Shown: positions 976-62,953 of the stretch, piece after piece
How the letters are laid out: each line of letters opens with the position of its first letter
Position numbering within the stretch: the stretch's first letter is position 1
Origin: Atrichornis clamosus
Lineage: Eukaryota > Chordata > Aves > Passeriformes > Menuridae
Direction of reading: 5' to 3'
DNA: 64,000 bases
Assembly (NCBI GenBank): GCA_013400975.1
Contig: WBMZ01011587.1
Coordinates: 215,931-279,930, forward strand
Position numbers and translations under genes: made by a program
Notes under the pieces: generated by a model
The model's input: the letters and a program-made list of their open reading frames with translations, nothing else
The model's database searches: none
Told to the model about the DNA's origin: nothing

Positions 976-1124
976 CTCAAGAGGCATTAGCCTAATTAGT
1001 GTTGCAAAGCACTGCGTCGCCATGAAACGTACACTGTTTGTCTGATCACTCATTCTACCCAGAACTGGAACCACTAGGAGAACAATGTATGGAACAATAC
1101 CAACATCCAGCTGCTCCATTACAC
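976..1124 (-). CDS. BTAF1: BTAF1 exon 25 (residues 1165-1214), last exon in window
   Basis: Encodes [49 protein letters not shown]. 149 bases; donor GTAAGC, phase 0. The next exon (human AGIPDPPNMSAEL) is not found in bases 1-975. Confidence 0.96.
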
Positions 1125-4100: not shown

Positions 4101-7100
4101 TTATAGAGGTAAAAAACCAGAAATCTTTTATAGCAGATTATTTGAAGTCTATAAATTTGAGATTTGACTTTTGCTAATACAGGTCCATTTCAACAAGACG
4201 TTTTCCAAGTGGTTTCCAGAACCACATATATTGCCAATATAGGGATACCTCAAATAGTAACATATTAGAAAACCTTACAAGAAACAATACTTGATTTGTT
4301 ATGAAGCCCTTTCTCTTGCTCTCACCCTCTTTGGCAAGCAGAATTAATAAAAAACACTTTAAAAACTAAGAACTAAATCCGCAACACTGTTTAGGAATCA
4401 CAGTCCTGCCCAGGATCTTATTAAAACACACTGAAGCTTTAAATTAATAAAACAGTAGCAAAAAAGTTTAGGACATCAAATATGAAAGTCACACACACAT
4501 CCTATTTCACAGCCATATTTCAATTACTGGTTTTAATGCTTCAGAGGCATCCAGCATGCACTGAGATGACCAAGACTAACAAGGGTAACAGGACAGTTTG
4601 TGTCCTCTTGTGTTTGTTCCACATTTTGTGGAAATCCATCTGCATGAATTTATATTGATATTCATATTCTACACTAAATATCAGGTTTCAGGAGTTAATT
4701 TTCTTATATGGCGAACCGAACACTTAAAACATCCTCAAACATAAGCCTCTTGCATCACAAAACTTCATGTCAACTCAGTTATCTCATGAGGAGATCCTAG
4801 GTATCCCTACTGGTGCCAGTGGATTCAAAGTAATGGAAGTAAGGGGTGGATGTGAAGTTTCAAATTCCAGCTTTTGAGGTGTACCTCATCAAGTTCCGTG
4901 GGAATGCTTCCACTGCTGCCTGTGGGGAGATCTGCAATAGGGGCTTTTGGAGCTTTTGGAGTAGGACCTCGCCGACTGGTGATGGCAAAAGCAGCTTTCT
5001 GATGTCTGTACAGTGTAATTATTCCCCTGTGCTTAGTAACTGTGTGCTGCATCCCATCCTTATCAGAGTTGGGCCCTAAAAGAAAAGGGAGAACAGTTGA
5101 CAACAATTTAAGCTGCAGTTTAACACACAAAGGGACGTGAGAGCTACCTACAAGTCATCAGCTGACTGTGCTTTAAAAAAAAAAGATCGTAATTTTCTCA
5201 TCCTTGAGCATGATGGCACTTCAGTACAGAGTAGAGTTACTCTGCTAGGAACACATTATAGACTTGGAGAAAAATTTAAGTGTGCAAACTGCCAGAAATT
5301 CTTATTCAGCAAGAAGCACAGGTAACACTCCAATCAAATATAAAACGTTTGCAAAATTTAACAAAATACACGCTATGTTGTAAAGTTTAAACTACTTATG
5401 TTCTGTGTCCTTTACAAACAGTTCAACACTTCTATCATGATACAGTAACAGATGCCATCAGTATCTCTGGATTTGTTGACATTTCTATTTGTACTAAAGA
5501 GCTTCATTTTCAATCAGATATAACATTACTGATTAAAGGAGAACATTCATTAAGGAAGAATAAAATGTTTAATGGTCAAACCTTAAAACAGGTTAGATTC
5601 TTTGAGAGTATTAAGATCTTAATGTGGATAATTTGGGTTGTTCATTCAATCCATATATTTTCAATAATGGACAGCCTTTTAAGGCATCCATGACCATTGC
5701 ATGCAAAGGATTATACAGCTCTGAAAACCATCCTCATCTTTTTTTATCTTATTATTAGCCTATGGAATGTAACAGAAGTCTCATGTTTTTGAGAGACTAC
5801 TCAAATTTCCATTCTTACTGAATTTCAAAGAAAAGCTTAGTAAGTGAAATGTGGTCATCTGTAAGTGAAATGTGGTCATAACTGGATAATAACCAAGAGT
5901 CAATACCTGGAAATTGGAATTGAAGTATTTTATACATATATTTTCTGAAAACAATACACATTAGTTGCACAGAGTTTAAAATCCCTAAATGAAATAATTA
6001 TTAATAAATAAATACTCAAATATTCATTTTAACTGTTCAGAAATAAGCACAGACATTTCAAGAATCCTGGCAGTCTTAAGATATCCTACCTTTTGAGTTT
6101 TCATGGCTACTCTGAGGCTGTGCAGGACATGCTGCTAGAGGGGTAAGATGTGGATCCACACAGAGGGAGTTGCAGAGATTTTTTATAATCTTTGAGTTGG
6201 GACAAGGAGACCTTGTTGTACACTGTTGAAGTAACTTTGCTATACATGAAGCCACATAGTTTTGCACAAGTGTATTCTCTTCTTTTTTAATAGCTTCCAT
6301 TAAGGGTTTTATAACAGGATTTAGTTTTTCGGGAAGTTGCTGCAAGTTCACAACTGCACATGCAGCAAATGTATGGACTCGCAGATGCAGCACCTGCCAT
6401 TCTTGGTTTGTTTCTGTAACAGTCATTTGGACTTGTTGCCGTTTACTGTCCAACTGTTGCAGAACTTTAGGATTCAAAGTAAAGGCTGATGTCACTTCAC
6501 TGAAAACAGAAGTAACCTGAGAGAAAGGAAAAAAAGAATCACAAATCTGTTTCATTTACTGTAAAACAGGATATTCTCATGGCACAACATGAGTCACTTG
6601 ACCAGATATCTCTATTTTCTGAGTAAATAACAGGAAATGCTCCATGATGTAGTTTCTGGAATCCTGAACTGCAGATCAAAGGGAAAATCAGGCATATCAT
6701 AAACATTTAAAGTCTAGATTCCCAAAGCTACGAGAACAGTTTATGTACTCCTCCAAATGTAGATTGTCCCATATCTGCCAGTTACATCCAGATATTCTAG
6801 AAATACAAGACCATGTGACAGATAAGCAAAGGGGAAGGTGAATACAAGAATCCAGAAAGGATGTCCAAGGTCCTGTGAATGAACAAGTTGTTTCTGAGCC
6901 TCTTTTCTTTTGAGGAAAGAGACTGAGACAAAAATGTGAGAAAAAAGCACAACAAAGTAGTAGCAGGACTTTCCATACCCTTCCCCACTCACAACTGGTT
7001 GATTAAATCTTTCACTGGAAACAGATTAATAGCAGATTAAAAGGTCAGGGGCAAGGCAGGAAAAGGTGTAGAATTTACATGGTCTATTTACAAGTCCTTT

Positions 7101-10100
7101 GACAGTGGTTTTGAAGGGGTTGCAGACTGCCTTGTTTTCTTGTGTGTAGATTTCAATAGTGAATCCACACCTCACACTCAGAACACCCAGTTGTATTCTC
7201 CTGTTAAGTATGTACCTTGCACTGCACTTGATTTTTGTCAGACTGTAAACACACCTCAGGGGGAACAGTATCTATACACAACCCGTGACATGAGATATGC
7301 AAGGGTCACCACATTATTCCTGCAAGTTACTGTCTATGCAATAATTATGCTGAAGATGCATTTCAAGACAAGAACAGATTTGAAGGAAGGGCAGACATGC
7401 CTCTACTTACCAGCTCATGAGCTTGATCTATTGTAAATACACTGCAGTTTACTCTGTTTCCAACGTCAATATGTGCATCGGCTAACAATGAGATGAGTTG
7501 TTTACATTCATTTTGCATTCGTGTAAAGGGAACAGCAATTTCATCATAATAGAGATGTTCAGAAAGGACCCCAAGTAAACGAGGTTGCACACAAATAGCC
7601 ACAGTTGTACACTCCTGTAACAGAAAAGACAATTTGCATTTCTGAGTAATCAGAATTTTCTTTTGTTCCAATTTGGGCAGCTCAATCTAGCTAAAAAAAC
7701 CCCAATTTCCAGAGGGACCATTAACATCTGTAACCCAGAATACGAAAGATTAGGAAGAAAAAGGCTGCCACTAGAAGTGGTAGCAAATAGAGGAAAGACA
7801 GTCATCTTAAAAGGAGTCACTGACCTTAGCTAAAAGGCATCTTGAGATTAGACTTACCTGTAGAAAAAATGTGAGCATATTTACAGAGTCATAGGTCTGA
7901 CAGCTGGCATTTATTTAGCTACTGAGTACTGTATCCACTGTCTAACAATCAAGATTTTGCTATTTAGATGTATAAACACCATTTTAGCTTACCAATTGAA
8001 ATGTTATTTCAAGCTAAGTACCACACAACAAGCAGTGGATTGAGTTAGTAAGTGAAATATATTTTTGCTGCAGAAACATCCTACCTTTTGCAAGGCTGCC
8101 CACTCACAGATTACTAACGCAACGCTAATCCTCTGCAAAGCAGATTTAGAATTCAAGTGGAAGAGCAGTAGCTGAGCTAATGACTCAGCTGGCTTTATTT
8201 CTTGAGTAACAGTATTTACACCTGGGTCACAAATGCAGCAACAAAGTGCTCCCAGCAACCTGACAAGAGGAAAAAGAACAGTCACTTCAATGTTACAGTT
8301 ACTCTGTAATTAATGACTCAAAATGACGATGCCAAAATAGTAATTAGATTTTGGCAAAACCACTACATGTAAGGAAAAAATACGTTGCTTTTAAGTGTTT
8401 TTTTTAATATTCCCAGTAAACTGACTTTGCTGCCATCATCCGAGCACGCATGACAACATAATCTCTGGTTGCTGGATCTTCTGCAATGCTGTCTGCCCCA
8501 GCAATATATTCCTGAATCACTTCCTTATTCTGGGTTTGACCTTGACGCAGTTTAGCACCTGCCTTTTCCTATGGAATAAAGGAAAGGTTGAAAATAAGTG
8601 TGTTTGTAATAAAAAGATGAATTCATATTCCATAACATTCCAAATAACCACCACAACATGCAAAAGTTGGACTAAGACAGAATACCTCTTGGATAACAGA
8701 CTTCTTAAAGCAGTTAATACTAGTAAATAATTTATTCACTAACAGCATTCTGTAGTCCAATTAAATGTGTGCTATATTCCTTCACTATAATATTAAGATT
8801 AGTACTCAACATACAGCTGATAAACACATAGGGGAAAAAGGAAACCTCTCTCAGCATGTTTTCAGAAATAACATAGCTCTTTTAGATTTAATTCAGTCCT
8901 GCAAACAGATGGCTTTGGAACCACGTAAATAAAGACTTCATGAAGTATCCACATAGAGCATGTTACATGGCAGAACTTAATTCTCATGGATATCTGACAA
9001 GAACTCTTTCAATCTACAGACTTGAGGCTTGTAGGACAGTTTAGAGTTGTAGAAAGGCACCACCACTCCCCTCAACACCTTTAGAATATGTTTTATATAC
9101 CATTAAGCAATTTCCTACTTTCCCCAGAACAGTCAGTGAGGTCATATTTCACTTACTTTTGACCTAGTTTTTACTTCTAGCAACATGTTTAAGTCAATGG
9201 GCAAATGAGATGGTTGCATCATTAAGCAGAGCCAGGCTCCCATCCACGGACAAGCAGCTGCAACAACATACTGTACAGATGCCTTGTTCAACAGTTCAAG
9301 CCACACCTTGGGAAGAAGCATAGTAGAAATCATGACAAATTTGTACGTGGTCTACCTAAGATCATACACATACTGAGAAACTCTAGGAACCATCTCTCAT
9401 TCACTCTGTAGCAAAGTATCACATAGACCAATTACAAAAAATTTAACATGAGCACACTATTCTTCATCTGCACAAAAGTACAGAGGATTTGGAAGAGCAG
9501 GATACACAAACACTACATATCTAGGTGGTAAGTCATGCAAATACCTTGTGAATAAGATCCAGAATTTCCTGGTTGCTTTCTAAGATACAAAATTGGAATA
9601 TGTGCCTCAACATGTCTTGCAGAATTGGAGTCAGCCATGTTGAAGAACTCTGAAACAAGGATATCACATGACCAAGCATATTCCAATATGTATCACAGTA
9701 AAACACTAGTAACTCTCATACTTACCTGGTCTTGTGTAGACAAGAGTGTGAATAACGTTTCCAGTGCTGCTTTGCGCACAGAAGATATCGTGTGATGTAA
9801 GAACGGCCACACACGTGGGACCAGAACTGTGAGGGACTGCTGAATACTGCAGGAAGGGGAGATGAAGAGGCAGTGACAGGGAAAAAACCAAAACACACAA
9901 AGCTAAGTTAATTTTATTTATCCTCATTTAATCCAAAAGAAAGGAAAGGAAAGTATTATTGCATATACTTGGTGATTTTAAGTCAAGGATCAAGTTATGA
10001 CATTTAAAGGAATTTGAGTTATCTTTTTCAGGAAAATACTGTTTTGGGGGATTTTTTTACCAGTATAGAGAACTAGTCAATTTAAGCATGTATTTTTATC

Positions 10101-42780: not shown

Positions 42781-42865
42781 TTTCTAGATTTGCTAGAAAC
42801 AGCTAGAAATAGCTAGAAACAGCTAGAAATAGCTAGAAACAGCTGTTTCTAGATTTGCTGAGAAC
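42781..42865. repeat. decamer minisatellite with flanking direct repeats and 20-bp palindrome
   Basis: Five decamers of the form AGCTAGAAAY run from 42791 to 42840, with the last base alternating C, T, C, T, C. The array is flanked by direct copies of TTTCTAGATTTGCT (42781-42794 and 42846-42859). Bases 42833-42852 form a perfect palindrome at the right end of the array. Confidence 0.9.
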
Positions 42866-45507: not shown

Positions 45508-45820
45508 TCAGTTCCAGTTGTAGTGGTCTCTCGGTGGTAAATCATAATGTGATCTCTCTTCCTCCTCAGGTCCACAATCTAGTGGCAGACCATAATTGTA
45601 ATCAACTGTTACAACTGGTAATCTTTTACTTTGTTCCATGTTTCTGATAGTTTCACCTTGAAAAGGCTTTCTTTCATAGTCTATTGAACTATCTTCTTGG
45701 TGTAAGGATGAAGGCGGGTGCATTGTTCGTGAAGAGTATGGTGCAAATCTGTTTTTCCCTCTATTGAATTCCTCTGAGGGATGTATTCTCCTATTGTCTT
45801 CAGCACAATTTGGTCGATTA
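45508..45820 (-). CDS. DUSP11: DUSP11 exon 10, C-terminus (residues 527-630)
   Basis: Encodes SNRPNCAEDNRRIHPSEEFN, KNRFAPYSSRTMHPPSSLHQ and the end HYDLPPRDHYNWN followed by TGA at 45508-45510. The proline- and histidine-containing end resembles the human HHLPPPGPP...YSWN tail. Confidence 0.92.
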
Positions 45821-48800
45821 CTGTAAGAAGAACAAATATGAACAGTGAAATTCTTAGAAATAAAAGTCGATTTGTTGCTGATGGCCACCACTAGAAATTA
45901 ACTGTGTTGAAAGAACAGTTCAAACCCTCATTCTTGTTTTTCTTAGCTGGGAAACTGGAAGAGTAACAGTACAAAGGTAAGTCAGAAAACAATGCATGAT
46001 ATCTGATATTTACCTATAATTTCTGTTAAAGTCATCATTATCAGACCCGTAATCTCTGTGAAGTGAAGGAGATGAGGAGAAATGAGGTTCTGCTACATTT
46101 TCATGGGAAGAAAAGGATTGACTTCTGCAAATAACCAAAAGAATTGCATGTTAAGAAGACTGCCAACCATTGTTAAGATTTGGAAAAAAAACCCACATAA
46201 AATGAAATAATACTTTTAATAAAAATTAGTTAAAATTTTACTAAAAACTTTAATAACTGTATTTACATGTCAAAATGCTTCATTATAATAACACTCTGTT
46301 TTAGCTCTACAATGGAAGAAATTAAATCAAACTTTACTAGTCCAATGAATATCTGAAATATATTCTGAAATATTAAAAATATTTTTAGATATGTCAGAAT
46401 TCAATAGGTTTACTAGTAACTGACGTATGTATTTGTGAGAATATAATGCAAATTCTGAAGCAAATTGATTTCTAACAAATTATTAATTCATGGAATAAAC
46501 AAAGGCCACTCAAACTTCCTTGTTGCATTCCTATTTATCTGTGGCTGAGGGCATAAATAAAATTTCATATCCTCTTCTGTCTTGAGGATTGCTTTTTAAG
46601 TATAAGTTTCTATATAAAATGAAGTGGGACAAAGAGTTTTGTTTCAAGCTGACTAAAAGGTAAAGGAAACACATAAACTTTAAAGAAGCACAACCTTCTA
46701 ATTTAGAAAACATTAGTTTTCAAAGCTGAAACACTTCAGCTTACATCAAACCCTTCCGTAAGTCAAAATAAAAAAGTTAATGAAATGTTCATTCATATAT
46801 TATTTTTAAAGTATTACTGATTTTAAAGTTTTGGGTTTTTTTTTAGTACATTATTTGAAATTTAAGTTAAAACTGCTGAGCTTTACACTTTTATTCTCTA
46901 ATTCTGGTCTTACAGCTCAAGGATGCTTTACCTGTCTGAACACCATTCACGTGGCAAGTCACTGTGACCTGGATGATCATGAAAAGGTCTTGGCCTCTGT
47001 CCGTGCCCTTTATTACCATAATCAAGATCTTTTAATTGAGTCTGTTCCTGTAAGCCATCATAAGGCTGAGGATCATGAAAAGGTCTGCGCCTTTGTCCAG
47101 GACCTTTATTATCATGATCTTTCAGCTGCATCTCTGTTTTTAAGTCATTTCGAGGCTGGTGATCATTAAAAGGTCTTAACCTCTGCCCACGACCCCTCTT
47201 AACAAATTCAAAATCTCCCAATTGCATCTGTGTCTGTAAGTCGTCATGTGACTCATAGTCATGGAAAGATCTTCGTCTTTGGCTAGGACCTCTGCTGACA
47301 GAATCTAATTCTTTTAACTGCATTTGAGTCTGAAATTCATCACGAGATTGGTGATCGTGGAACAGTTTTCGTCTCTGGCCACGGCCCCTGCTACCAAAAT
47401 CAAAATCCTTTGACTGCCTGTCTTCCTGCAAATCGTTAGGAGATGGATGGTCAGGAAAAGATCTCTGTCTTTGTTCACGGCCTCTGTTAAAGTCAACATC
47501 CCTCGACTGTCTCTCTGCCTGTAAATCATCATGAAACTGGTGTCCATGAAAAGATCTCAAACTTTGTCCGTGCCCCTTGTTACTGAAGTCTAGGTCCTTC
47601 AGCTGTGTATCTTCTTGATAATCATCATAAAACTGGTGATCAGTAAAGGCTCTTTGTCTTTGTTCTGGTCCCCTATTGTAGTCCCAATTTCTCATCTGCA
47701 TCGATGCTCTTAATTCATCCTGAGTTTGATGGTCATGAAACGGTCTTCGTCTTTGTCCAGGCCCCTTATTAATGAAGTCAAAATCTCTCAACTGTATCTG
47801 TCCTTGCAAATCATTGTGAGAATGGTCATCATAAATTCTTAATCTTTTCCCAGACCTGTAAAGCATAGAATATCATACAAGTCATTAATGAAACCAATTC
47901 CTTTTTAACTAAGAGTTTATATGAAAGACATTGCAAATATGAAGGTATCGAAACTACTAATAATCCAAACTGTAAAAAAGATTATAAAACCTTCAGTGTT
48001 ACAGCAGAAGCTGTGGGAAACATTCAGTTGTAATTCTACAGTGCTTGATAAACAGGCAAAACCAGTGATTGAAAATGAATTTAAAATAACTGTAGATTAT
48101 TGTAGAATAATAAAGAAGGGCAGGCAAAGTAAAACTAAATTTTCCTAAATGAAGTAATTACTTATAGACTTCTAACAGCACACATTCCTTTTCTTTCCCT
48201 TATCTTGTCACTGTTTTGTCAAATTCTATAAATACATTTTACGTAAGTAGGCTATATTAAAAAAATCTCTTTTGTGTATCTATAGTATTTTCAGTAAGAA
48301 ACAATTGTCTTTCTCCTCCTGGTTTTTTTTGGTTTTGTTTTTAATTCCATGTTTCAGCCTATTACCCCTGAAAATCTTCATTTGGGAAGCGCTCTACAGA
48401 TCCTTCCATTGCATGTGGTGGGGGGATAATATCTTCATCTGCATCCCATACATCCATTCCAAGGTTACTAGGAAGGAAAAAAAACCCTCACATAAGCTTC
48501 CTCTTTTAAAACATACTAGTGACAGAGAAAAAACGCACCCCCATAAAATTCTTCAGTTAAGAATGACAGAAGTTTTATGTTAAGTAAAACTTACAAACAA
48601 CTTAGAAAATATTAATCTTGTAAATTTATTTTAAAAATCTGATATGAGACCAACTTAATCCTGCACAGACTATGAAACAATTACAAGAATAAAACAAAGC
48701 GCATTCAATTAATCTAAAAAACACACAAATCAGTCAGATATTTTAAAATAATTTACTGCCACAAAGCATCATTAGTACAAATACCTTAGGAAGATGTAAA

Positions 48801-51800
48801 GGTTGACTGTTCTTAGGAGAATGTGATAAGCATAATCTTAAATATCAGGAATACAACTACTATGAATAGAGGAGACAAGAACAATCTTTCACTTTCCCAC
48901 ACTTTTTTATTCTTACAACCGTTCTACTTTTTTTTTTAATATCTGGTTCTGCAACACCAGCAACACCAGGGAGATCACAGAGCTTATAAAGACATCTTTG
49001 CAGTGGCTCTTTTCAGCTTATAAGGAGAGAATACAGACTCAATACACTTGTCACAGTATGATAAAAGCACAACAATGTTCAGTGGTGGTTGTTGGATTAA
49101 AAACAATCTTTTGAACCATATAAATTCAAAAGATGACCAAAGTACGCTGCAGTTCATGTTATTCATATGAGACTACACAAACAACTAAACATATTTTACA
49201 ATCTGTGTGTAGTTTCGTATTAAAGGTTTAAGAGGGAATTAGTTTTGGCTTAGGACTGGGAGCAAACTTTTAAAAATACCAGAAGACATACTGGAAAATC
49301 TTAAGCATACAACTAAAAGCTTTTGTTTACCTTCGCATTGGTTGTGTCCTGAGATCTGTGAGATACACAAGGCCATCCATGCGATGACCTCTGGCATCAC
49401 CAAAAGCTAAGGGAAAAAAAAGATACAATCTAATGAACTGTGCTCAAAGTGGGCCAGGAAAATGTGAAAGGAAAGTTTCTGTTCACCATGGGATCCTGAA
49501 TTTGAAACAATTCTAACTTGGTATAAAGTATTTCAGCAAGCTGGCATAATTGCAGCATTTTCAAAAAAACCCTGAAACTAGCAGGGGCAGCAAACTATTT
49601 CAAGTGAAGAAAAAACAAAAATTTAAGTAGCTAAAACATACTCCTCCTATGCTGTCAATTTGCTGCTGCTTAAGTCCTGCCTGGAATAGAATCAACAGTC
49701 AGATAAAATCTTCTATGTAAGCCAGCACATGAAATTACTGACAAGATACTAAAATAGAATTGTAATATTTGTGAATATGTAGGAAGTGAAGTACAATCTG
49801 ACATGTGCCTTAGCTCAAGCTATATAAATACCTTGGATTGCTGCCTCTGGATCCCAGCCTTCAACATCTATAAGATACCTGAAGAAAAATACGACTATGT
49901 TATTGTCCCAAAGGGATTACAGAGTAATATAAGGATGCTATATTTTGTAACAATGATTTCTGGTTTTATACAGCCTTACCTACATATCAGGTAGCCAGTT
50001 CGATTAATTCCATTAGTACAGTGAACGCCAATGAGCTTCTCTATAAAAAAAAGAAAGTCTTTAATAGTTCAGAAAGTTAAATTAATTTTTAAAAAGCGCA
50101 ATACAAAATTAAAAGTCTCTACTTTTTTACCAAAGTAATGATAAATAATGCTTCCTATTTACAAAATTATACTGTCACGCCTGTAAAACAACAGACACAT
50201 CCAGACTTTGTCCTCTTCATGCTGGATCTCTAGCAACAGTTAGCTCACTACTTCCAAACCTGTGAATGCTGGGATTGACTCTGCAGAATGTAGGAAAAAA
50301 CAAACAGGAGTGATAACAAGTAAAGCACCTAGCCTCAGCCAGACTGCAGCAACAAGAGAAAAAGAATGAAATACGGGTTTGAAAGCAAATCTAAACAAGG
50401 AAATGTAGAACTGAGGAACTTAACTTATACCTAATGCATCCAGAAGTATGAAATGCCTAGGAGTATAAAATGTGTGGAGAAAAAAAGGACCAGTAATCTC
50501 TAAAGGAATCTTTTCTTTTTAAAAAGGATTATACTAATCAGCTAAAGGCTGAAAAGCAGAATAACTTACTATTACTAGGGTGTTCCAAATGAGGTATTTC
50601 CAACAGAAATAGGGAGACACTAATATAATCACACAAGGCACTGGTAAAGCACCATCCAGACTATTCATATTCAAATGTAATGAAAAAAATCAATTTAAAT
50701 ATGTATATGATGGTCATAAAAGAAGGAAGCTTGTCTTAGTCTGTAAAGCAAATCTGAGATACTGAATATAATAATAAGGATGGAGAACAATACTTAAAGG
50801 GCAAAGTTGGCATGAGAAGAAATGTATACTAACTGAGACTTTTAGACTACATTTTAGAAGAAAAACTTTCATTATCAGAAGAACAAAGTTTTGGCAGAGA
50901 CAGTACTGACAGATGGTCTTTGAAAGAGGACTTTGATAAATTTTTGAATGAGATAAAATTTAAGTGTTTGCCACAGATCAGGACAATCAAACTGCCGTAT
51001 AAGTTCATTATAAGTGAATGTTTTAACAATTCAAACACTAAAAACCCCACCTTCTCAAAAAGTATTTGTAAAAAGAATCCTGAGATATTTTAGGGATAAC
51101 CTAAAACATAGGCCAAATTATGAGGAGTGGGTTACCATAAAAATGAAAGTTCTCCCAACTCAGAAGTCACATAAGCTCTGCCAAATGCTCTTATAGCTGT
51201 AACTGCAGGACAACATCCAGTAAGAAATCAAGAATTTATTTTCTCAGTATTAGATTCAGATACAGACTATTCTTTGTCACACAAAAAAATTACTAGATCA
51301 AAACCAAAAGAAAACTAATAACCACCAAGTAATTTCCTTAAGCGAAGAAAGAGCAAAGGAAGAACTTACAAACTAACTTCCAGAGCAAGGACGAAGGCTT
51401 TTTCTTATACCTCTTAATTTTCCCAGTACTTCTAACTCAGGCTCTCATACTTGAAATTAACACCAGAGCTCTTTCACAAAACGTAACTGACCATCCACAG
51501 CAAGACCCTGGTTATGCTTTGCAGTAAAAACTGTATGAACTTGGGTGGTTAATATCTCTACTTTCTCAAAGAAAATGCCAAAGGAACCAGAGCAAATAAA
51601 ACAAAGCAGCTTGAAAGAATGATCCACCAATATTGGATAAACAAACAGCTAAAATCTGCCTACAAAGAATTACTACCAAAAGAAGTGAGAGGCTAAAAGC
51701 TACAAACACACTGTGGCAAAATACATACAAATTTATTTTCACAAAAAGCAGCTTATCCAATCTCAGCAAGAACTGTCCTGCTGCATAAACACTGAAACAG

Positions 51801-54800
51801 CAGCACAGCTACACTGTGTAAACACTGACACTAGGTCTGTAAAATGATTTTCAATAATTGTTCTGATATGAAGGCAATAATGAACTCCTAAGTCAAAAAA
51901 CCACATCATCAGACTAAATTAACTGAAGTTGCTCACACATATCAGTGCCCAGTGCCATCAGAGACCCAGTGCTATTTAAAACATCCATCAAGGGCTGGCA
52001 GCTACAACACTCAGCTGGTGGTAAACCATTTGGGTCAGACAAATGAAGGCCTTGTTGCAGTTACTTTGACACGTAACACAAACATAACACTATTAGGAAG
52101 GGCATTTAAGTTACTAGTAGTTTTTGAAAGACATTCTGATTGAAAAAAATAACTAGTGCCCCCCATAATGGAGCTTATTGTGATAATAAAGCAAAGTGCT
52201 ACAGAAAGTCAGAGTTCCCTGGTGTAATAGATTTTATTGAATATTGAAATTAGTAAATGACACAGTACTGCAATGAAATGTCATTGGTTTTCTTTTTTAC
52301 AGCATTGGATACTGATATTTACCATTTTCTGCATTTTCCCATAGGAATTTTCTGACCCATTTTTTGAACTGTAGGATAGTAGCATTATCAGGGACTTCAA
52401 GTCCAACAGTATAAAGTTTCTTATACTGCACACTTTTAGGTAAATCCTAACAACAAAAAGAAAAAAACAACGGTAAAAATTATTGAAGTCTTGCATCAAT
52501 GAAAAACCTTAAGTAGTATCTAAGATAATGACAATGTAAACCAGTAGTTCAAATCCTGAACAGAAATGGAAACAATCTTGACACATTTTATAGAGATATA
52601 CTCTCAGAAACTACCATTAACATTCCTACATTAAAGACCATCTCAAACAAAGAACAGAAGAAATCTTCCTACAGAAGATTTATTTAGCCCTGCTAATAAG
52701 GCTGCACATTAACTAAGGGAGCAGAATCTTGTAATTCCATTCTAACCCATTTTATGATTATTAGCAGTATTTGTCCCACCCACCCACCATCATATATATA
52801 CTCTCATATTCACACCCTTAATGCTTAGAGCCCATGTAAATTCAAAGATTTGCATTCTGTTTTAACAGTGCCATTTATTCTCCTTTTCAACAGGAAGCTG
52901 ATTAATCAAAATTGTTTGGACCACACTGGTAAAAATTTTTTAATTGATAAAGTAGTTTTAAAAGGTACACTTTCTTAGTGGATTCCACTGAGGATCAGTA
53001 AAAAAAGACCCTAGGAATAAATGAGAATATCTTCAGGACACAGAGTGTAACTCTTCTGTACCTTTTGTGCAGTGCCTGGCACTGAAGTCTTCACCCATTA
53101 CTCAGCTACCATAATACAAATGAGCCACAAATGCAACCAGATGGAAAAGGAGTTATTTCCTCTGTGATAAAACATTTATTTTCCACTGGAGACACAACAT
53201 TAGTCTAGATGGCTTACTTGTCTATTCCAATAAACAACTGTGTAAACATGTTATAACAAAAGCTGCAGTAACTATTTTACATTTTTATTAGGCTTTTATT
53301 ACCTTAACTTCATAATATCGTGTGGTATATGTTAAATCAATAATTAATCCAAGTTCCACATTTAGGGCTTTCATTGCAGCAATTAAGTCTTTTGGTGTAA
53401 ATTTCTGGGTTGGCGTAAGCCTCTGGTTAATTGCCTACAAATAGAAAAAAAATTTATTCTTATGTTCTAATAACAAGACATTTGTAATATTCAGCTACTT
53501 TGATTAGTACAAGGAAACATCAATATTGAAAATGTAGTGTTTAAGAACCACATCCATGTATTATAATGGTAAAAGGAACCAAATAAAAAGAAAGCAAAAA
53601 TCTTTTATGTATTCCTATTCAGATAAAAATGCAAGAAAATGTGAGCATTTCTGCTTGTATAATGTTAACAAATATTATTAAAATAAGCTCTAATTTGAGA
53701 CACAAAAATTCCGCAAAATGCAGCATGTATATACTGATTTTTATGTAAAAATCAAAACAGTATAATCCACTTCCCCCAACAAATTTTGTCCTGCACAATA
53801 ACACAAAATTAACAGTGTATTTCACACAAAACATTAGAACTTGTGATACAAGAGTTGATTTCTAATGGTTTTAACTTTCTTCCCACAAATGTTGTGCAGA
53901 CATTTTTATCCCTGCTTCATCTCTTGACAGTGTTCTTGCATGTCACTTAGCCCTGGGAAATATTAAATAAGACTAAATATCGTGACTAAGAAAGCTGTGT
54001 GTTGGTGGATAATGAATAATTCATTTCATTTGACAAACAGTGATAAAAATGTTTACTCACCCTATTGTAGCTGTGTTTTTTGAAATGTGTTCTTCACTTT
54101 AGGTATGAAAATGCCTCATATACTCAAGAGTGGATTTTCTCTGAATAGTGCACGTGTCCATTGTGAGAGCCTTTTGACACAGGCTCAGCCAGAACCAATA
54201 AAGACAGTGGCAAAAGATGCAGCAGCCTCAACCACCTGTCAGTTCCTTTGTCAACAAGAAATTCAAGCAGACTGGACTCAGAACTATTGGAAAGGAAGGC
54301 AGCCATAGACCACATATCTCTTAGAACCACAGATGCTATAGGGTAACTAACCATTCCTTGTTTTGACTGTACAGATTATAATGTAAAATACTAGCAAGCA
54401 CTTGTCTCGAGTTTGGAAACAGAGACAGGAAACCCAAGTAAAGAATAAATAGCAGAGCAGTCATATCAAAGCTGGTATGTGATTAGGAAGCTTGAGCTGA
54501 AAGGAGTAGGATAGAAAGCACATAATAAAGTATTCAGTCGTATGTATTTCAGACACCAGTGCACTGCTGAAAAAAGTGGAGGTTGTAGAAGTTTAAACAA
54601 AATGAACATGAGTCAGTTATCTCACTACTACTCAGCAGTGACTCTTACTACAATCTGAAACTGAACTTAACAACTGAGGTGACAATGGTGAATCTGCAAA
54701 AGGTCTGTGGTAGAACATTAAAGAATTTTTACTATGTGAGGTCACACAAACTGAGGAGGAATAAAATTTACAAAAATAAGTTATCTCTAAACATACTGTT

Positions 54801-57800
54801 TGATTGAGTAGACAGTTAAATGTGTTATGAAAGACTAAGTTTTGAAAGAGTCTTTGGAATTTTCTGAAAAACTCCTGCTGAGCACTCAGTAGTTTAGGTG
54901 TTTAATTGGGCTTTGAGAATGTGAGAAATCTGAATCAATTCTAAAAGTCCTTCTAATGGCTTGGGAAAGAACTTGCCCAGTTCTTACTGTACTACAAAGT
55001 TACTGGTAGCAGGATAATGGTGAAAGGAAGGACAGAAAATCCTTCCAAGTAAACACATGATCTTAAAGACTTTACTCACAGCACATCTAAGACAATAACC
55101 CTTGAACCTTCAAATACTGAAAATATGTTTTCTCTCTTAGCCTGAAATCACCTACCATCAATTTCCTAATAGTTGGCAAAGAAGCAAACTGCTGCATATT
55201 TAAGAGGTCTGTTACACCAATTTATTAAATAATAGAACTTCTGACAGACTATGACCAATCGAGTCTTCAGCATTTTCAGAGACTTACTGACCACCACCTC
55301 TGCAAAGACATCACAGTCTAGCCAGCTACACATTTTCTGTGTATTCTGCCACAAACCCCATGACCTTCAAGCACATGGTCTCTGGCAGACTCGTCATTTC
55401 TCTGTCTTCCGTAGTTGAGACTGAACAAACCAAAGGGACAGAAATGTTACAGATTTTGCATTCTTGGGTAGCAGACTTTACATCTGGCCAAGTTCAAAGA
55501 CAGCTTCACAGAACAGAGATCTATGCCCCAGTGAGATCAGTAGGACTGGAAGCAAGTACCATGCTGACCTAGAGTAATACTTGTGATATATTGGTATGAA
55601 CACTCTGGGAATGTCTGCTCTTTTCATCATCTCTGGTGTAGCTCCTTCCACACTATCACCAGAGCTATAGGGAAAGACTAAAGTGACCAATTAAGTATCT
55701 TCCTCTGAAATCGGAAGTGGCAGGGAACTGTGAATATATGCACTGAACAAACCCTGCCTAGAACAGTACCAAAAAAAAGGTGCTGGATCAAGAGGAATTG
55801 AAGGAACTGATGATGCAAAAAATCCTCTCTCAAATAGCCCAATAGCAAAGGAGTCAATTATAAATCTACTGCATTTTGTTTCCACAGCTCGATCTGTTGA
55901 CTGGCAGTCTTGGTGGAAAGACACAAACTACTGTACAATCCCTCTGTATCTTGGAGAACACGACCAATGCTGAGTACGGGATCCTTGGTGTCCAAGGAAC
56001 CAAACCATTATCCTAAAGCTGGAAAAGCAGCTACAGGAAGCAAATCCTGCAGTCATTTCAGTCATTGCTGACAAAAGTGAACTGAATGGTGACTGAAAAC
56101 ATAATGGGTACTAATATAGCCAAAACCTCCAAATTTTTGTGTATGAATACTAGAGAGCAATTTGTACACAACAGCTTAGACAGAGTGTTTCCTCTTAACT
56201 GCTAAGGTTATATCAAACCTCTGTACTTTAAAAGTGCTTAGAAACTTTTATTTCCTCTGTATCTAAAGCAAGGACTTGTAAAAGTTAATTTATACAGTAC
56301 TTGCCCTTCTGTATTAATTAACACTGATTTGCCTCAGTTTGCCCTATGCCTCCAAAGAGGCATAGGCACCAAAGAACTGAACAGTCTCAACAAGAAAACC
56401 TCCACATATTTTAGAATCAAAGAATTTAAAGACTTGACTCAATGTATTTAATAGCTTAGGATAACACTTCATGTTAGTAAGACTCTAAAGGAAGTACTAA
56501 CACGTTAAAAAAAAAAATCTATGAAGACTTCTTTTTAAAATATACTACGTTCCACGTGATCACTGAAACTTTTTGCTTATGAAGTTGGCAATCTAGATCT
56601 ATAATTTTAAAAGTTCTGCAGTGGCTGGTATCCTTTAATGACTGCTTGATCTTCATAAAATTATACTTTGGCTTACATTGCCTAGATTGTTATTCATATC
56701 ATAACCTCTTCCATATGATTTTCTTAAAAGAGTCATGAAAAGATGTTAAGTAAGGCTATGAATTTAGGCCACTTAATAGTGATCAAATTAATTGGGCTGA
56801 TTGATTTAGAGACTTGGTGATTTTTAAAAGATAAATAGAAAGAGTAACACCAAATATAAAGAAAACTAAGAAAAAATATAGAATATTATTTTTTAAAGAC
56901 AGATGGCTGAAAGGGCTAAATCTGAATAAATTATTTTTCCAAAACTTTCTTGAAGTTTGCATGTATATTCATGCTGTTCTTCATTACTTTTGCAGTTTAT
57001 CTAATACAGCCAATCTGCAGTTACTTTTTATACATACCCCTTTTAAAGGTACTTTGAATGCAATAAATCTTGTTCCTGGTATAGGCTGTCCAACTGGTGT
57101 CAAACTCCGCCATCTGAAATGAAAGAAACATTTATTTCTAAATATTTTGAAGTTACATGATTCAACAGAAGACAGCTGCAGCACAAAGCACATAAAAATT
57201 GCTGTTATTATACAGTATAATTAGGTCCCCAAATCTGCAATTATTCATGAAGTGGTTTCAAGGTATCATCAGGACATTTGAAAACAGTCTTCTTCCCTCC
57301 TTCTTCTTCAACTTCCAAGAAATTCCTCTCCTCAGAACGGCAGGATAACATGTACAAACAAGTAGCACCAATATAAAGCAAAGCAAATGTGTAAGGTTCA
57401 AGAGGCAAAAATGTATTGTTGTAGTTGGTGGACATTTTTCAACTGACGGAATCAAACACCTTAAAAAAGCTACCATATGCACGCATCCATCATTTAATTG
57501 ACAATGAAATGCAAAATCTACTTTCATTAACAATACAAATCATCTGTATTTTTCAAAAAATGTTTTCATGGTAATATGCTTCTTTTTCAAATAAACACTC
57601 TTGAGTGTACTTTCTCTCACCACTTTGAAAAATACAGAGAATATTCCATCACACCAAAACTTAGCAAAAATCACCAATATCAAGATTTGTTACAACACTC
57701 AAAACACCAGTAATTCCAAACCCACAAAGAACTGGTAGGCACAGGTACTAAATTGTACTGAAAAAGCCCTTGATTGATAATATTTCAGAGATTTCAATTT

Positions 57801-60800
57801 TTAAAGGATGAACAGCATTATCTGAAGAGGAAAACAAGTTAATCAGCAGATAAATTTTACCTTCAAAGACGTAACTTACTAAATTTAGGACTTTTATTTA
57901 TTTTTCTCATGTAAGAGCAAATTATCTCTGTGACCTCAGAAGATGCAGCCAGGTGACTTAAAATCTACACAGCCCTTTTGCATTTTCAGCTAATACTGCA
58001 ACTATTAAAATACAAAACATTTCCATCAGATTCTTTAACACTGGTGCCCATTCATTTAGTTTTCTGACTTAATGTTTAAATTAATCTCTCCCTTTGAAGG
58101 GAGCATCTAACAGCTTCTGGATTCCTTTCTGATATCCATAAAACTACACCATTTACAAAATAAACTGAACACTTAATTTTAAAATATTCTAACCATTGAA
58201 TACTTTATTCACAATTCCCACATCAGGCCATAAAAAACCCTAGACATTGGCTGGAATAATTCTCAATGAAATATCAGTACTTATACTTGTCATAGTATTT
58301 AAATAATAACATCATCATTCACAGATGCTTGTAACTAAGAAAGGAAACACACAGCATGGTGACCAAAAGTGTATTTGATACTAACAAATCATGGAACAAT
58401 CTACTACATCCATGTCTCTAGCACTAACGTATCTTTTTCATCTCCACCATGAGGTAAAGAACAGATCAAGGCTCACAGTGTAGACATACAGGTGCTTAGT
58501 TTAATGGATAACAAATGAAGAAACAAAGGAGTAATAACAACTCATCATTAGGAAGGCTGTTGCAAACAGCTGTTCTGTAGAAGACAGATACAGGTGAGAA
58601 GGTGTAAGGACAATCTACAGATTAAATCACTGAGAGGTGTTTGCAATAAAACCTTTTACTAAATTCCAAATTTTTGCAGGAAGTTTGCATCTCCTAATTG
58701 CAACACAGGAAACAGAAACAGTCTTCTACAAATAACATATTATGTAAGTGTTAAAACTTGACAAATCTTCCTAAGTGAATTTTCAAGGTTGTAAACTTTG
58801 GAGTCTGGTAGCTTTATGCTGGCTGTAAAATATGAAAACAAAAATCTGAGACTATGTTCCATTTATTCCTGTTTAAGAGATGTAAATTGTATACAAATCA
58901 AATAAGCTCAGAAATTCAGTGCTGTCTTAACTTCCTTTCTCCTGGAAAACTATTAGGGGAAATAAACCATGATTATCATAGATAGGAGCATTTAGAAGTG
59001 AAAAAGAGATGATGAAAAAAGGGCTTTAAAATCCTATTTTCTTTAATTAGCAATGTAAAAAAGGCTTTGTAAAAATTCTGACCTTCTTTTCATATTAGGG
59101 GATTGACAGCACAATGCCCCAGGATTACACAGTATATTGTCAGACCTTAATAAACTTTGATTTTTATTCTCTTGTATTTAAAGCCATTTAAATCCTACCC
59201 GAAAAAAAAATCTGCAAAATCAGCAAGAACCTCAAAAGCTGCTGACAGCTCTATAGTAGAAAATGAGCACAAGGCACTCTTCATCAAAAATATAAAGGGT
59301 ATGTGTTCCATGTTATCTTTAAAATGGTATTTCAAAAGGAAATTTCAGCATTCTGCTGCAGAACTAAAAATAAAACCAGCAGATTGAAATTAAGCAAAGA
59401 TTAGCTAAGGAAATAAATTCAGATTTGTTCTATTGTCAACAAAGGAACATGGTTGAGAAATAGTCCATGGTGGCCTGGACTAAAGAAAGTGAAACTCTTA
59501 CAGAGTAAGTTTAGATAAAGGCAGAAATGATCAAAGTCTAGCTGCAAGTAGTCACATGAACAGGAATTACAGGAGCAAAGACATAACTAAGCATTTTAAC
59601 AAGTATGAATGAGAATTGTGACACATGATTTGTGTCCTGCTTGAACGTAAGTGGAAGGAAGAAAGGCAGGAGTCAAAGCTGTTATCACAAGACTTGGCAC
59701 CATCATCATCCCTGTACCAATGACTAAGAGCTAACAGAGGCTTGAATGATAAACAAGCTGGACATGAAGTAGCTGATTATGGATTACACACAGCTGCATA
59801 TTTTATCTGCTTTGGTTAAAACTTTTAGTAGAGCCAGATTGGGAACACACTGTTTGATCGTAACTTAGTTTGACATTACTGTTATGGTCATACAGAAGCT
59901 TTAATTTCCAGTAAAATTTTCTGGTTTAGAACTGATTCATGGTAAAATTTACTTTTAACAACTACGGAAATACTGTCACCTGTAGCAAGATAATTTAGAA
60001 AATACTACTTGGAACCTCTTCTCCTTTTTTTGGCTACTGATACTGCATGATATACAGGCAACCTTACTTTCTAAGTGGCTTCCATATCTCTACAGACACC
60101 AGATTCAACACTGATTATAAGAAACAATTTTACAAATAAACTATGACATTATGGTAACCCTTCTCTCCCACCCACTGTTGAACATGTACAATCCCTTACA
60201 CCAGTCTTGAATATTCCTGTCTAAATAAAAAGATGCTTTACCTCTGCATACGAAAAATTCAGTTAAAGAAGTATGTTTATAATGCATAGGTGAAAATAAT
60301 TCAGCTTTGTCCTTATAAAAACAAGAAAAATCCTGCTCAGTACTTTTTTATACTATTCAAGGGAAACATACCAGAAGGTGACATTTTCAGATGCTTTTCA
60401 GAACTGAACTGGCGTTTATGTAACTGTATCCACAGCAGGATTTTGGATGCTGAAGCAGAAATGTGTCTACATCTTTGACACTGGTGTCTCACTTCGCTAC
60501 AAAATTACTTCACCAGCACTACTTTCTAGGTTTGAGACTGCAATGGATACTGTACAGCATAGCTCTGCTCCAAGACATTATTGGGAAAAGACAGAAAAGC
60601 ATTTCTTTATCACAGAATGGTTTGGGTTGGAGCAGGCCTTAAACATAATCTAGTTCCAATGCTCCTGCCACGGGCAGGGACACCTTCCACTAGGCCNCAC
60701 TACTTTCTAGGTTTGAGACTGCAATGGATACTGTACAGCATAGCTCTGCTCCAAGACATTATTGGGAAAAGACAGAAAAGCATTTCTTTATCACAGAATG

Positions 60801-62953
60801 GTTTGGGTTGGAGCAGGCCTTAAACATAATCTAGTTCCAACGCTCCTGCCACGGGCAGGGACACCTTCCACTAGGCCAGGCTGCTCAAAGACCCATCTAA
60901 TAGGCCTTGAAAACTCTTCCAGGGATGGGCATCCATAACTTATCTGAGCAACCTGTTCCTATGCATCACCATTCTCATAGTGAAAATTTTCTCATGTCTT
61001 ATATAATCCTATGTCTAACGTAAACTTCCTTCAGTTAGAAGTCATTACCCCTTGTTCTAAAAAAAAATTTCACCATTTCTTGTTTAGTTGCACTATTCCT
61101 ATACTAAATTAACTGAAACCTCAAATGTATTTTATTGCTTTAATTAGCACAGTGAAATTTGGACTAAAAGTCCAAAGACAATCTTAAAAGGTGGCTTTAT
61201 GTAAGGTCACTTTAGCTACTGCAGTACCATTAAACTAAACCAGTTACTGTTGGATGTAATGCTGTTACAACATGGTGATCTGATGGAGGTTGTACTGCCA
61301 CAGTCTGCACATCTGGACTTGTCCTTATGCTCCAGCGTACCACGATCTCACTTCTGTCAACAACTATTTCTGGGGCCAGTAAACGGCATGTGCAGGATCA
61401 CCTAGATTAAAAGTGGTTTTCCTTAAATCCCTTCTGGGGTTCACTTCTATGTTTTCCTGGCTTACTAAACTCACAGTGAAGAACAACACGCAAAAAGGTG
61501 ACATCAATACCCTGCTGCATGAGACTGGGGCCCTGACAATTCCTTAAACGTCTTTAGTGCCAAACCCCCATTACTGTGGTTTTCTAGCCTGATTTCTTAG
61601 CAGTATAAAAAGTGTCTAGAGAAGCTGAAAGCACTTCAGTATCAGGCACTCTGTCAGAACGTAATTCTAACTTTATAGCCAAATACTTGACAGTAGCTGC
61701 TTCTCTGCTTGAAAGGTTTTAGTTTGCAATCATAGAAGTCGAAAAGTCCACTGATTCTTCCAGACGTAAGAAATCCATGTAGCCTGAAAGCTGCTCCAGT
61801 TCAAATGCCAGGGGGGAGGGTAAGAATGGAGAAATGAGCACCTAATTCTCAAAGTTTTAACAGTAATTGCCAAGTATGAAGAAGACAGTTCATTCTTTTG
61901 GGATTTCTGCATCACTGCTTACAAAACTAAACTCACTTTAGTTCACTTTTATCCAACATTTAACTGAAACGTCAAGGAAATTTGCAGAGAAAGATACGCT
62001 TAAATAATTTTTCTTAAATTTTATTCTAATTTAATCCCCGAGTTTGTCAGCTTCAGCTGAAGAAAACTTCAGCTTATTTTTTAAATTCTGTTGAACTTTT
62101 TTTTCTATTTATTGCTTTTAGACCAACCCATTATTACAGGAACTCATGTTTTTTGTATCTTATTGCTCCTCCTAAGAACGTTCTTAATAAACCTATTTAA
62201 CACTTTCCCTGAAACCAGGATAATGTAATTCTTTCCTAAAATAATGTATAAACTCCAAGTTATTGTCCTATTACCGTGTGCCTTTATATCTCAGCATATC
62301 CTTCTATCCAAAAAGTTTGTACTGATGTCAGCAGAAACACATGGATTAAAATTCTAAACTTGGACTTTTTTCTTATTAGAACTGAAGAATAGAACTGTAT
62401 CTGTTTTAAAAGACGTCATGATCCACATATGCACTTCCAATCAAGCCATCAGAAAGCCTGTATAGTGCATTTGGGTTCATGATTATTTTTGCTGATACAA
62501 CATTTTTGTTGTCCTCCTGTTAAAAACAAAACCACGGGATGTTTCTGATCTGAATTCATGAGTATATTCCTTGATCTTACGCATGCAACCACCTGCTCCC
62601 ATGTTATCAGCTCTTCCTCCACTCCTAGTAGCAAACATGTGTAGTCCGAAGTATGGACTACTCTCCCATTTCCCCAGTAAACATACATTTGGGGTAAGAA
62701 GATTAGGAAGAAGGGACTGTGTGTGGCCGATGAAGGAGAATTGTTCACAGACAGGCTGGAGCATTATACTCACCTGGGGGATGAATGGCTGGGCTGTTCC
62801 TGTCTTGGAGAAGATACCTACCTTACCTGAAGATGCTTGAGGCAAGAAAGCGCCTGGGGCAGTCAGTGCCCCTTCTCTGTGGAGTGCCCGCTCCTGCCTC
62901 TTGTTTAGTGTGAGGGATACTTACCCATCAGGGATAGTATTCTTCTTTACCAT
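45508..62953 (-). CDS. DUSP11: DUSP11 (PIR1), RNA 5'-triphosphatase, with expanded repeat exon
   Basis: An atypical dual-specificity phosphatase that removes beta and gamma phosphates from RNA 5' ends, mainly nuclear. Ten coding exons join into 631 codons including the stop. Residues 1-35 include PVGQPIPGTRFIAFKVPLKG; 36-79 contain LGLIIDLTYTTRYYEVK; 80-120 include the likely general acid Asp99 (EVPDNATI). The P-loop HCTNGINRTG has catalytic Cys128 and Arg134. YLICRYLIDVEGW follows, then a basic tail. These match the remembered human protein (about 330 residues) closely. Residues 182-490, all from exon 8, are ten diverged tandem units of about 31 residues, rich in G, Q, R, D, H. The C-terminus ends DHYNWN, resembling human YSWN. 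All junctions are GT-AG and keep phase. The start codon chosen is the only ATG that joins to exon 2; it gives a shorter N-terminus than human. Confidence 0.93.
46014..46124 (-). CDS. DUSP11: DUSP11 exon 9 (residues 490-527)
   Basis: Encodes SQSFSSHENVAEPHFSSSPS, LHRDYGSDNDDFNRNY. 111 bases, symmetric phase 2. Serine-rich and of low complexity; no domain recognised. Acceptor TGCAG, donor GTAAAT. Confidence 0.88.
46932..47855 (-). CDS. DUSP11: DUSP11 exon 8, ten tandem ~31-residue repeats (residues 182-490)
   Basis: A single 924-base exon open throughout. Ten units of 26-32 residues follow the pattern GxGQRxRPFHDHQ, then a short acidic DDLQ, then QLKDLDFxNK. Each unit alternates a basic Gly/Arg/Gln part and an acidic Asp/Leu part. 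Units differ at many positions but none has a stop or frameshift, which suggests an old expansion kept under selection. Both ends are phase 2 and 924 is divisible by three, so skipping the exon keeps the frame. Acceptor TTACAG, donor GTAAAG. Confidence 0.93.
46932..47855 (-). repeat. coding tandem repeat, ten units of about 93-96 bp
   Basis: Unit lengths in residues, in gene order, are about 31, 31, 32, 31, 32, 32, 32, 30, 32 and 26. The first (RSGKRLRIYDDHS) and last (ending SDLPREWCSDR) are the most divergent, as expected at the edges of an array. Recurrent plus-strand DNA words are tcatgaaaaggtct and ggcc/ggac-ccttt. Confidence 0.92.
47856..49330 (-). other. DUSP11 intron 7
   Basis: A 1.5-kb AT-rich intron with short T and A runs. 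Nothing recognised. Confidence 0.7.
49331..49406 (-). CDS. DUSP11: DUSP11 exon 7 (residues 157-182)
   Basis: Encodes AFGDARGHRMDGLVYLTDLR, TQPMR. 76 bases; equivalent to human NRCRGHCLERQNYIEDLQ. Donor GTAAAC. This ends the conserved phosphatase domain. Confidence 0.93.
49832..49878 (-). CDS. DUSP11: DUSP11 exon 6 (residues 141-157)
   Basis: A 47-base exon encoding RYLIDVEGWDPEAAIQ. It is separated from exon 5 by an intron of 101 bases. Matches human RYLIDVEGVRPDDAIE. Confidence 0.94.
49980..50040 (-). CDS. DUSP11: DUSP11 exon 5 with catalytic P-loop (residues 121-141)
   Basis: A 61-base exon encoding EKLIGVHCTNGINRTGYLIC. HCxxGxxRTG is the protein-tyrosine-phosphatase-type signature with the nucleophile Cys128 and phosphate-binding Arg134. 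Human has HCTHGLNRTG. Confidence 0.96.
50041..52322 (-). other. DUSP11 intron 4
   Basis: A 2.3-kb AT-rich intron. No repeat family or exon recognised; the residue phase passes cleanly across it. Confidence 0.7.
52323..52446 (-). CDS. DUSP11: DUSP11 exon 4 (residues 80-121)
   Basis: Encodes DLPKSVQYKKLYTVGLEVPD, NATILQFKKWVRKFLWENAE, N. It includes the candidate general acid in VPDN. 124 bases; donor GTAAAT. Confidence 0.94.
53303..53434 (-). CDS. DUSP11: DUSP11 exon 3 (residues 36-79)
   Basis: Encodes AINQRLTPTQKFTPKDLIAA, MKALNVELGLIIDLTYTTRY, YEVK. 132 bases, phase 0 at both ends. LGLIIDLTYT is the central beta strand of the phosphatase fold. Confidence 0.95.
53435..57037 (-). other. DUSP11 intron 2
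   Basis: A 3.6-kb AT-rich intron with a perfect short hairpin at 56343-56366. No other element recognised. Confidence 0.7.
56343..56366. repeat. perfect 10-bp inverted repeat, 4-base loop
   Basis: CCTATGCCTC, CAAA, GAGGCATAGG in DUSP11 intron 2. Confidence 0.95.
57038..57113 (-). CDS. DUSP11: DUSP11 exon 2 (residues 10-35)
   Basis: Encodes WRSLTPVGQPIPGTRFIAFK, VPLKG. 76 bases; acceptor TTTCAG, donor GTATGT. The GTRFIAFKVPL signature is shared with human DUSP11. Confidence 0.95.
60517..60877. repeat. 180-bp direct duplication around one N, likely assembly join
   Basis: Bases 60517-60696 and 60698-60877 are identical except for T at 60660 against C at 60841 (179 of 180). The single N at 60697 lies exactly between them. 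This is what unmerged overlapping contig ends look like. Confidence 0.95.
60793..61060 (-). mobile_element. CR1 LINE 3' fragment
   Basis: On the plus strand: cacagaatggtttgggttgg, ccacgggcagggacacctt, ccactaggccaggctgctc, ttccagggatgggcatcca, gcaacctgttccta and cattaccccttgttcta. These are standard antisense CR1 phrases in birds, so the element is on the minus strand. Its 3' end is repeated at about 60612-60696 by the duplication before the N. Confidence 0.92.
62925..62953 (-). CDS. DUSP11: DUSP11 coding exon 1 (residues 1-10)
   Basis: Encodes MVKKNTIPDG, equivalent to human KKKGGNHIPER just before the conserved Trp. Donor GTAAGT is strong. The ATG is preceded by a pyrimidine-rich tract and CAG, with only one base between the AG and the ATG, so a non-coding exon upstream is likely. 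Confidence 0.82.

Follow-up and report, generated by a model that had tools for sequence, protein, structure and literature searches.

DUSP11 (PIR1) acts on triphosphorylated RNA and alters RIG-I sensitivity, according to two reports (PMC12058148; PMC7706711). In the former, Arg192 of the human enzyme is suggested to serve β-phosphatase activity, capping enzymes are described as being without this residue, and the viral DUSP11s of avipoxviruses are described as carrying it (PMC12058148). Because the Arg is reported there, the avipoxvirus DUSP11s look DUSP11-derived by this residue. The next closest folds to the protein described here are those of a baculovirus RNA 5′-phosphatase (1yn9) and the capping-enzyme triphosphatase (2c46, 1i9s).

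A gene with a DUSP11-type catalytic domain was found in a 64,000-nucleotide stretch of DNA from the bird Atrichornis clamosus (contig WBMZ01011587.1, positions 215,931 to 279,930), which is called the window below. In a model built from splice sites and reading frame, the gene occupies 45508-62953 of the minus strand in 11 exons and encodes a product of 664 residues, with AG/GT borders and a kept frame at every internal junction. Exon 1 (62925..62953) contains the proposed start codon (MVKKNTIPD), and this N-terminus matches proteins P0001, P0004 and P0017. Exons 2 (57038..57113), 3 (53303..53434), 4 (52323..52446) and 6 (49832..49878) join in frame; exon 5 (49980..50040) encodes the P-loop HCTNGINR at 50000-50023, and exon 7 (49331..49406) encodes Gly168 at 49372-49374, which is aligned to Arg192 of human DUSP11. 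The linker exon 8 (48366..48467, 102 nt), exon 9 with a ten-unit array (46932..47855, 924 nt) and exon 10 (46014..46124, 111 nt, also with AG/GT borders and in frame) are all symmetric in phase 2, so that, by the predicted phases, skipping of exon 9 would leave the frame intact. Exon 11 (45508..45820) carries the tail motifs RFAPYSSR and DYNYGLP, the coding end and the stop. The 660-aa protein P0001 shares 94% identity with the window protein across 100% of the query and follows it colinearly through all 11 exons. It is encoded on a 4765-nt contig from the source 'lgn', a label that we take to mean assemblies of public reads, and its cluster has 103 member sequences. Since the gene spans 17 kb in the window, the simplest view of this contig is that of a spliced transcript, which would place exon 9 in the spliced mRNA; the alternative is a processed copy.

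Intron 1 contains two 181-bp copies (60517-60877) that are 99% identical, with an N near the junction, and this pair is probably an assembly duplication. Downstream on the same strand lies a neighbour (895-8309, minus) with DUF3535 in three ORFs (E 2.9e-48, 3.1e-10 and 7.7e-9) and a 45-residue PDB match to fungal chains listed as 'Helicase-like protein' (E 4.4e-12); it is presumably BTAF1/Mot1 and is useful as a synteny anchor. A 10-bp tandem repeat (GCTAGAAACA) of about 5 copies lies in the intergenic DNA at 42792-42844.

In the window gene the fold is of the DUSP11 type, and the Cys and Arg of the P-loop are intact. Pfam DSPc was matched by the window protein with an E of 1.5e-12 (47.9 bits against a cut-off of 33.5), and residues 4-183 align without gaps to human DUSP11/PIR1 structures with an E of about 1e-63. 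When the model of the hawk orthologue P0004 was compared with known structures by Foldseek, the top four were human PIR1/DUSP11 (4mbb: 56% identity, target TM 0.93). By DSPc, the HCxxxxxR P-loop and PIR1 as the closest fold of the hawk model, the protein belongs to the DUSP11/PIR1-type atypical dual-specificity phosphatases, and a putative RNA-5′-phosphatase-like character is suggested for the window type from sequence. Cys128 and Arg134 of the P-loop occur throughout the window-type set (96/96 rows), one row of which (P0242) is of the DUSP11 type, leaving 95 true window-type rows. At the Arg192 position, 93/95 window-type rows have Gly, the exceptions being P0040 (Arg) and P0080 (Ala); Arg192 is kept in 118 of the 120 rows labelled tetrapod DUSP11 (2 gaps) and in 20/20 teleost rows. 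Still counting P0242, 94/96 rows have Val or Ile in place of Asn194, and the P-loop His is exchanged for Asn in 57/96, for Thr in 31/96 or for other residues.

The gene had been named DUSP11 in a sequence-only reading of the window, and this name did not hold. DUSP11 exons are located elsewhere in the same genome, at contig C2675:32273-36031, where they read RWTDYIPLGRRMPGTRFIAFKVPLKK, HCTHGLNRTGY and SRGHPIERTNYIQDL. A manakin DUSP11 query matched C2675 in six stretches at 54-93% identity, most of them with better E-values than the stretches in the window, where the gene was matched in two stretches, 45% and 77% identical. Stops occur in 4/6 of the C2675 stretches, all at exon edges; a stretch on C5625, a candidate capping-enzyme exon, was also matched in this search. 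In an unrooted tree without outgroup, made of 46 rows (45 of the 249 proteins found and the window; P0048 was absent as its catalytic stretch was too short), 24 window-type rows including the window gene stood apart from 17 tetrapod and 5 teleost DUSP11 rows across a branch with 100/99 support. Without an outgroup, the duplication is placed in time by the midpoint root. The C2675 exons, the separate tree group and the Gly at the Arg192 position led us to reject the window gene as the DUSP11 orthologue.

Among the matches listed, window-type proteins from birds, reptiles, some mammals, amphibians, coelacanth and elasmobranchs outranked DUSP11, and a DUSP11 query led to a distinct series of proteins, partly from species also having the window type. 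Both types are present in Phalacrocorax carbo (P0005/P0206), Dasypus (P0059/P0165) and Hemicordylus (P0048/P0114). The two types share 54% catalytic identity in Phalacrocorax, 56% in armadillo and 57% in caecilian; the window-type catalytic domain of Phalacrocorax is 98% identical to that of turtle and 78% to that of sawfish. The window gene is probably, as judged by these sequence comparisons, an ancient vertebrate paralogue of DUSP11 in a group reaching sharks, a judgement made jointly with the whole explanation given below. The catalytic domain is, at the level of sequence identity, more conserved than that of DUSP11 in most pairs compared: cormorant and turtle are 98% identical in the window type (Emys) and 80% in DUSP11 (Mauremys), and cormorant and armadillo 86% and 71%, whereas for cormorant and caecilian the two values are alike (75% and 73%).

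In databases the window-type gene is labelled 'dusp11 ... gene 2' in Xenopus, 'DUSP11RC1I' in chicken and 'uncharacterized protein LOC...' in many species, and for several birds and reptiles the window-type protein is labelled 'RNA/RNP complex-1-interacting phosphatase', which is the name of DUSP11. Public annotation mixes the two genes, and a host 'DUSP11' chosen by name can be the wrong gene. In literature searched for DUSP11/PIR1, the paralogue names and bird, Xenopus, reptile and duplication contexts, a scope mostly outside subscription journals, no description of the window-type gene was found; it is apparently an overlooked sister enzyme, whose range extends from sharks to birds and includes several placental orders. 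Among the matches listed, the mammals with a window-type protein are carnivores, bats, pangolins, armadillo and colugo. The best 120 of 296 and the best 120 of 501 matches include no named member from human, primates, rodents, ungulates, marsupials, monotremes or teleosts; this is absence from the listed matches and not proof of loss, because each cluster shows one name. That no human, mouse or zebrafish member is among the matches listed could be why the gene was left unstudied.

Exon 9 encodes ten tandem units, and here the sequence-only reading was right in coordinates and unit count. The frame is open on the minus strand (stop-to-stop ORF 46928-47872, 314 codons), a TTTACAG acceptor precedes 47855, a GTAAAG donor follows 46932, both ends are in phase 2, and periodicity is above shuffles. 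The length of 924 bases also stood, while the exon holds 308 codons and not the 309 residues claimed. The first unit has 31 aa, the next eight have 30-32 aa and the tenth is truncated at 25 aa. Unit 1 (47765..47855) has its first codon split with exon 8; unit division and cross-species matching place the others, all likewise on the minus strand, at 47672..47764 (unit 2), 47576..47671 (unit 3), 47483..47575 (unit 4), 47387..47482 (unit 5), 47291..47386 (unit 6), 47195..47290 (unit 7), 47105..47194 (unit 8), 47009..47104 (unit 9) and 46934..47008 (unit 10). Residue self-identity at lag 32 is 0.31, against a maximum of 0.165 among 1000 shuffles, a periodicity far beyond chance. At the DNA level a 35-nt core recurs in ten copies 90-96 nt apart, and nine copies share 69-83% identity with the reference; TRF at its threshold missed the array. 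Units within the window average 48% identity (nine units, 36 pairs), and the median dN/dS among them is 0.31, which is weak evidence as 18/36 pairs were computable and dS was saturated. No Pfam family matched the array at E up to 1 and no PDB entry at E up to 10, a 35-residue consensus peptide gave only chance matches in the PDB (E 1.5 and 3.1), and no relative of the array was found in a scan of viral contigs.

Across 270 archelosaur and tuatara units (P0028 excluded), the kept columns are a GxGQRxRxF start, an acidic D/E, a Q and a [KR]D[FLWY][DE][FY]xN[KR] end, with Arg in 92% of units at column 5 and 95% at column 7, and Phe or Tyr in 99% at column 10. The triads near the unit end are unit-specific: FDF in unit 1, WDY in unit 2 and FEF in unit 7 are each found in 28/30 sequences (the window and 29 others, again without P0028). 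The triad of unit 4 is variable (IEF, FEF, TEF, VDF, gaps), and unit 6 has mostly LDC or LDS, the last aromatic residue being gone. The alternating basic and acidic blocks were weaker than claimed earlier. Charge in the window array has a 32-residue period, but its blockiness is within shuffles (z 1.3, reached by 56/500); blockiness is above shuffles in turtle (z 4.2), lizard (z 3.1) and panda (z 3.8), and not in the caecilian array (z −1.1). The net charge of the array is −2 in the window and −11 in turtle. AlphaFold2, given the sequence of the hawk orthologue P0004 and an alignment of 60 of the 249 proteins found, modelled the catalytic domain with confidence and gave the tail a pLDDT of mostly 32-46 without secondary structure; by this model of the orthologue, and not of the window protein, the array-bearing tail is predicted to be disordered.

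With a profile of nine window units, ten units scoring above 3 were counted in 30/30 sequences P0001-P0030 (27 bird-type, one turtle, one alligator and tuatara), some of which are N-terminally truncated or annotated as partial. The same window-derived profile counted 6-10 units in squamates and 3-7 in placental mammals, with weaker counts in pangolin and colugo. In a predicted flamingo isoform (P0031) three units are joined directly to exon 10, a structure that splicing from a donor inside the array would give. When each window unit was matched by position, the best match fell on the corresponding unit for 10/10 units in duck, turtle and alligator and 8/10 in tuatara, and this figure falls to 5/10 in alligator lizard and 3/10 in panda. 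The one-to-one order in archelosaurs implies that the units diverged before these lineages split, without later homogenisation; the lizard and panda values do not extend the fixed order to all amniotes. Exon 9 is 80% identical to the window in duck, 80% in turtle, 76% in alligator and 66% in tuatara, where exons 1-7 are 99, 97, 92 and 92% identical, and 54% in alligator lizard, 44% in viper, 37% in panda and 35% in armadillo, where exons 1-7 are 89, 88, 88 and 86% identical. Between window and turtle, the 80% of the array compares with 81-82% in exons 8, 10 and 11. The array offers a clean case for asking why repeat number freezes instead of turning over.

Tails of 24 proteins were scanned with the profile of the 270 archelosaur and tuatara units against 200 shuffles per tail. 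The signal was above all shuffles in squamates (2/2, lizard and viper), placental mammals (3/3, bat, panda and armadillo), caecilians (2/2) and coelacanth (1/1), the last with one matching stretch near GPGPRCRPYYDLPPYD (score 12.6, maximum of 8.7 in 200 shuffles). Salamanders were mixed: Pleurodeles was above all shuffles, Lissotriton was beaten by 2/200 and Ambystoma by 152/200. One of six frog tails was above all shuffles (Rhinophrynus, with a weak best single match of 4.1 bits), and the signal in two elasmobranch tails was not above shuffles. A single unit in DUSP11 tails was not supported, 0/5 tails exceeding all shuffles (Pteropus was beaten by 11/200), and no unit scored above 3 in the 133 DUSP11-type proteins P0106-P0238. 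The array as a bird novelty was rejected by the ten-unit arrays and matched order of turtle, alligator and tuatara. The caecilian proteins P0066 (1027 aa) and P0072 (986 aa) have longer arrays with another consensus (about DxDFPNSGPGQRxPF in P0066), suggesting a separate copy-number change outside amniotes. A 21-row tail alignment lines up the exon 11 motifs RFxPYS and DYNxGxP across species from elasmobranchs to birds, with DYNxGxP missing from its two placental mammals; searched as strict patterns among 106 window-type rows, the motifs have matches in 53 and 56 rows. From this distribution in sequence the motifs look older than the array.

Several readings of the gene and its tail were weighed. 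In the sequence-only reading, the gene was DUSP11 proper and had recently undergone a lineage-specific expansion, and the likeness of the catalytic domain to human DUSP11 (E about 1e-63) agrees with that. It is contradicted by DUSP11 exons elsewhere in the genome, by the separate tree group and by the ten units shared among birds, turtle, alligator and tuatara, with homologous arrays in lizard, viper, bat, panda and armadillo, and we regard it as practically untenable. That reading had itself set an array in human and other mammals against an expansion of this kind; other mammals have the array, and no human member is among the matches listed. A second possibility, which we consider rather unlikely, is a purely passive role for the array, as a disordered spacer of which only length and composition are maintained. 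The structureless tail of the AlphaFold2 model and the lack of Pfam family and PDB match for the array would suit a spacer, as would the fall of array identity to 35-54% in squamates and placentals while catalytic exons hold 86-89%, and units 4 and 6 have no fixed triad. Against this, several unit-specific residues are kept across 30 sequences, all 30 have ten units, window and turtle arrays are as alike as their neighbouring tail exons, and the median dN/dS among units is below 1 where computable. The array might instead bind RNA directly via the Arg-rich GxGQRxRPF half of the unit, raising local affinity, possibly with condensation. The nearly invariant Arg and aromatic columns of that half speak for such a role, and RNA is the target of the human and viral relatives (PMC12058148). 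It is disfavoured by the negative net charge of the window and turtle arrays, by conservation of the acidic/aromatic half as well and by charge blockiness in the window no higher than in shuffles, and we hold direct RNA binding to be improbable.

The explanation that we favour, as probable and no more, is an ancient DUSP11 paralogue encoding what would be an RNA-5′-phosphatase-like enzyme of changed specificity, with a disordered tail for multivalent docking. In the simplest history, one coelacanth-like unit inside a single symmetric exon may have been amplified in early tetrapods; each unit would then have been kept under its own constraint, and the unit number would have stayed constant in archelosaurs and tuatara. 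The folded domain would be of the working RNA-5′-phosphatase type, with an end point or substrate presumably unlike that of DUSP11, because the Arg, Asn and His of human DUSP11 and the baculovirus enzyme are replaced by Gly, Val and Asn. The disordered tail may be a docking strip of ten related, non-identical motifs together with the older C-terminal motifs, which could tether the enzyme to a partner or an RNP. Among the tail readings, such a strip fits the unit-specific constraint best. A stronger version, in which the gene is a second dedicated RNA-5′-end phosphatase of amniotes and its tail lines up ten docking motifs in order, each under its own constraint, is a speculation that we put below even direct RNA binding. 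If it were true and the FDF-like cores bound DDX6, 5′-phosphate trimming would be coupled to P-body decay; if it were true and the enzyme stopped at a different phosphate than DUSP11, triphosphorylated RNA would meet a different fate with each of the two.

Compared with known systems, the nearest named relatives are window-type genes themselves. Xenopus dusp11 gene 2 (P0078) is one by tree, and its tail has no unit above shuffles; chicken DUSP11RC1I (P0025) is another, with 82% identity over 97% of the query and ten units. No description of the function of either was found in the literature searched. The FDF-motif binders of DDX6 (EDC3, LSM14/CAR-1) resemble the array in a DFDF-type motif, which is found in window units 1 and 5 and is looser in others; a C. 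elegans EDC-3 peptide contains SDFDF (PMC8514580). Unlike in those binders, no downstream FEK helix was seen in the array, and the first Phe is not kept in most caecilian units. Literal FDF occurs twice in the window array, the strict motif in 52/270 units and [FWYL][DE][FY] in 175/270. The likeness to FDF/DDX6 is taken as a lead by analogy only, because of this low strict count and the caecilian units. The baculovirus enzyme 1yn9 has HCTHG and RGHKIERQNY as in DUSP11, and the window gene is without both. With DUSP11/PIR1 it shares the fold, the P-loop class, 54-57% catalytic identity in the pairs compared and a non-catalytic C-terminal tail. It differs in being a separate gene with Gly168 for Arg192, Val or Ile for Asn194 and mostly Asn or Thr for the P-loop His, in having units that did not show up in the DUSP11 tails scanned, and in a catalytic domain that evolves more slowly in most pairs compared.
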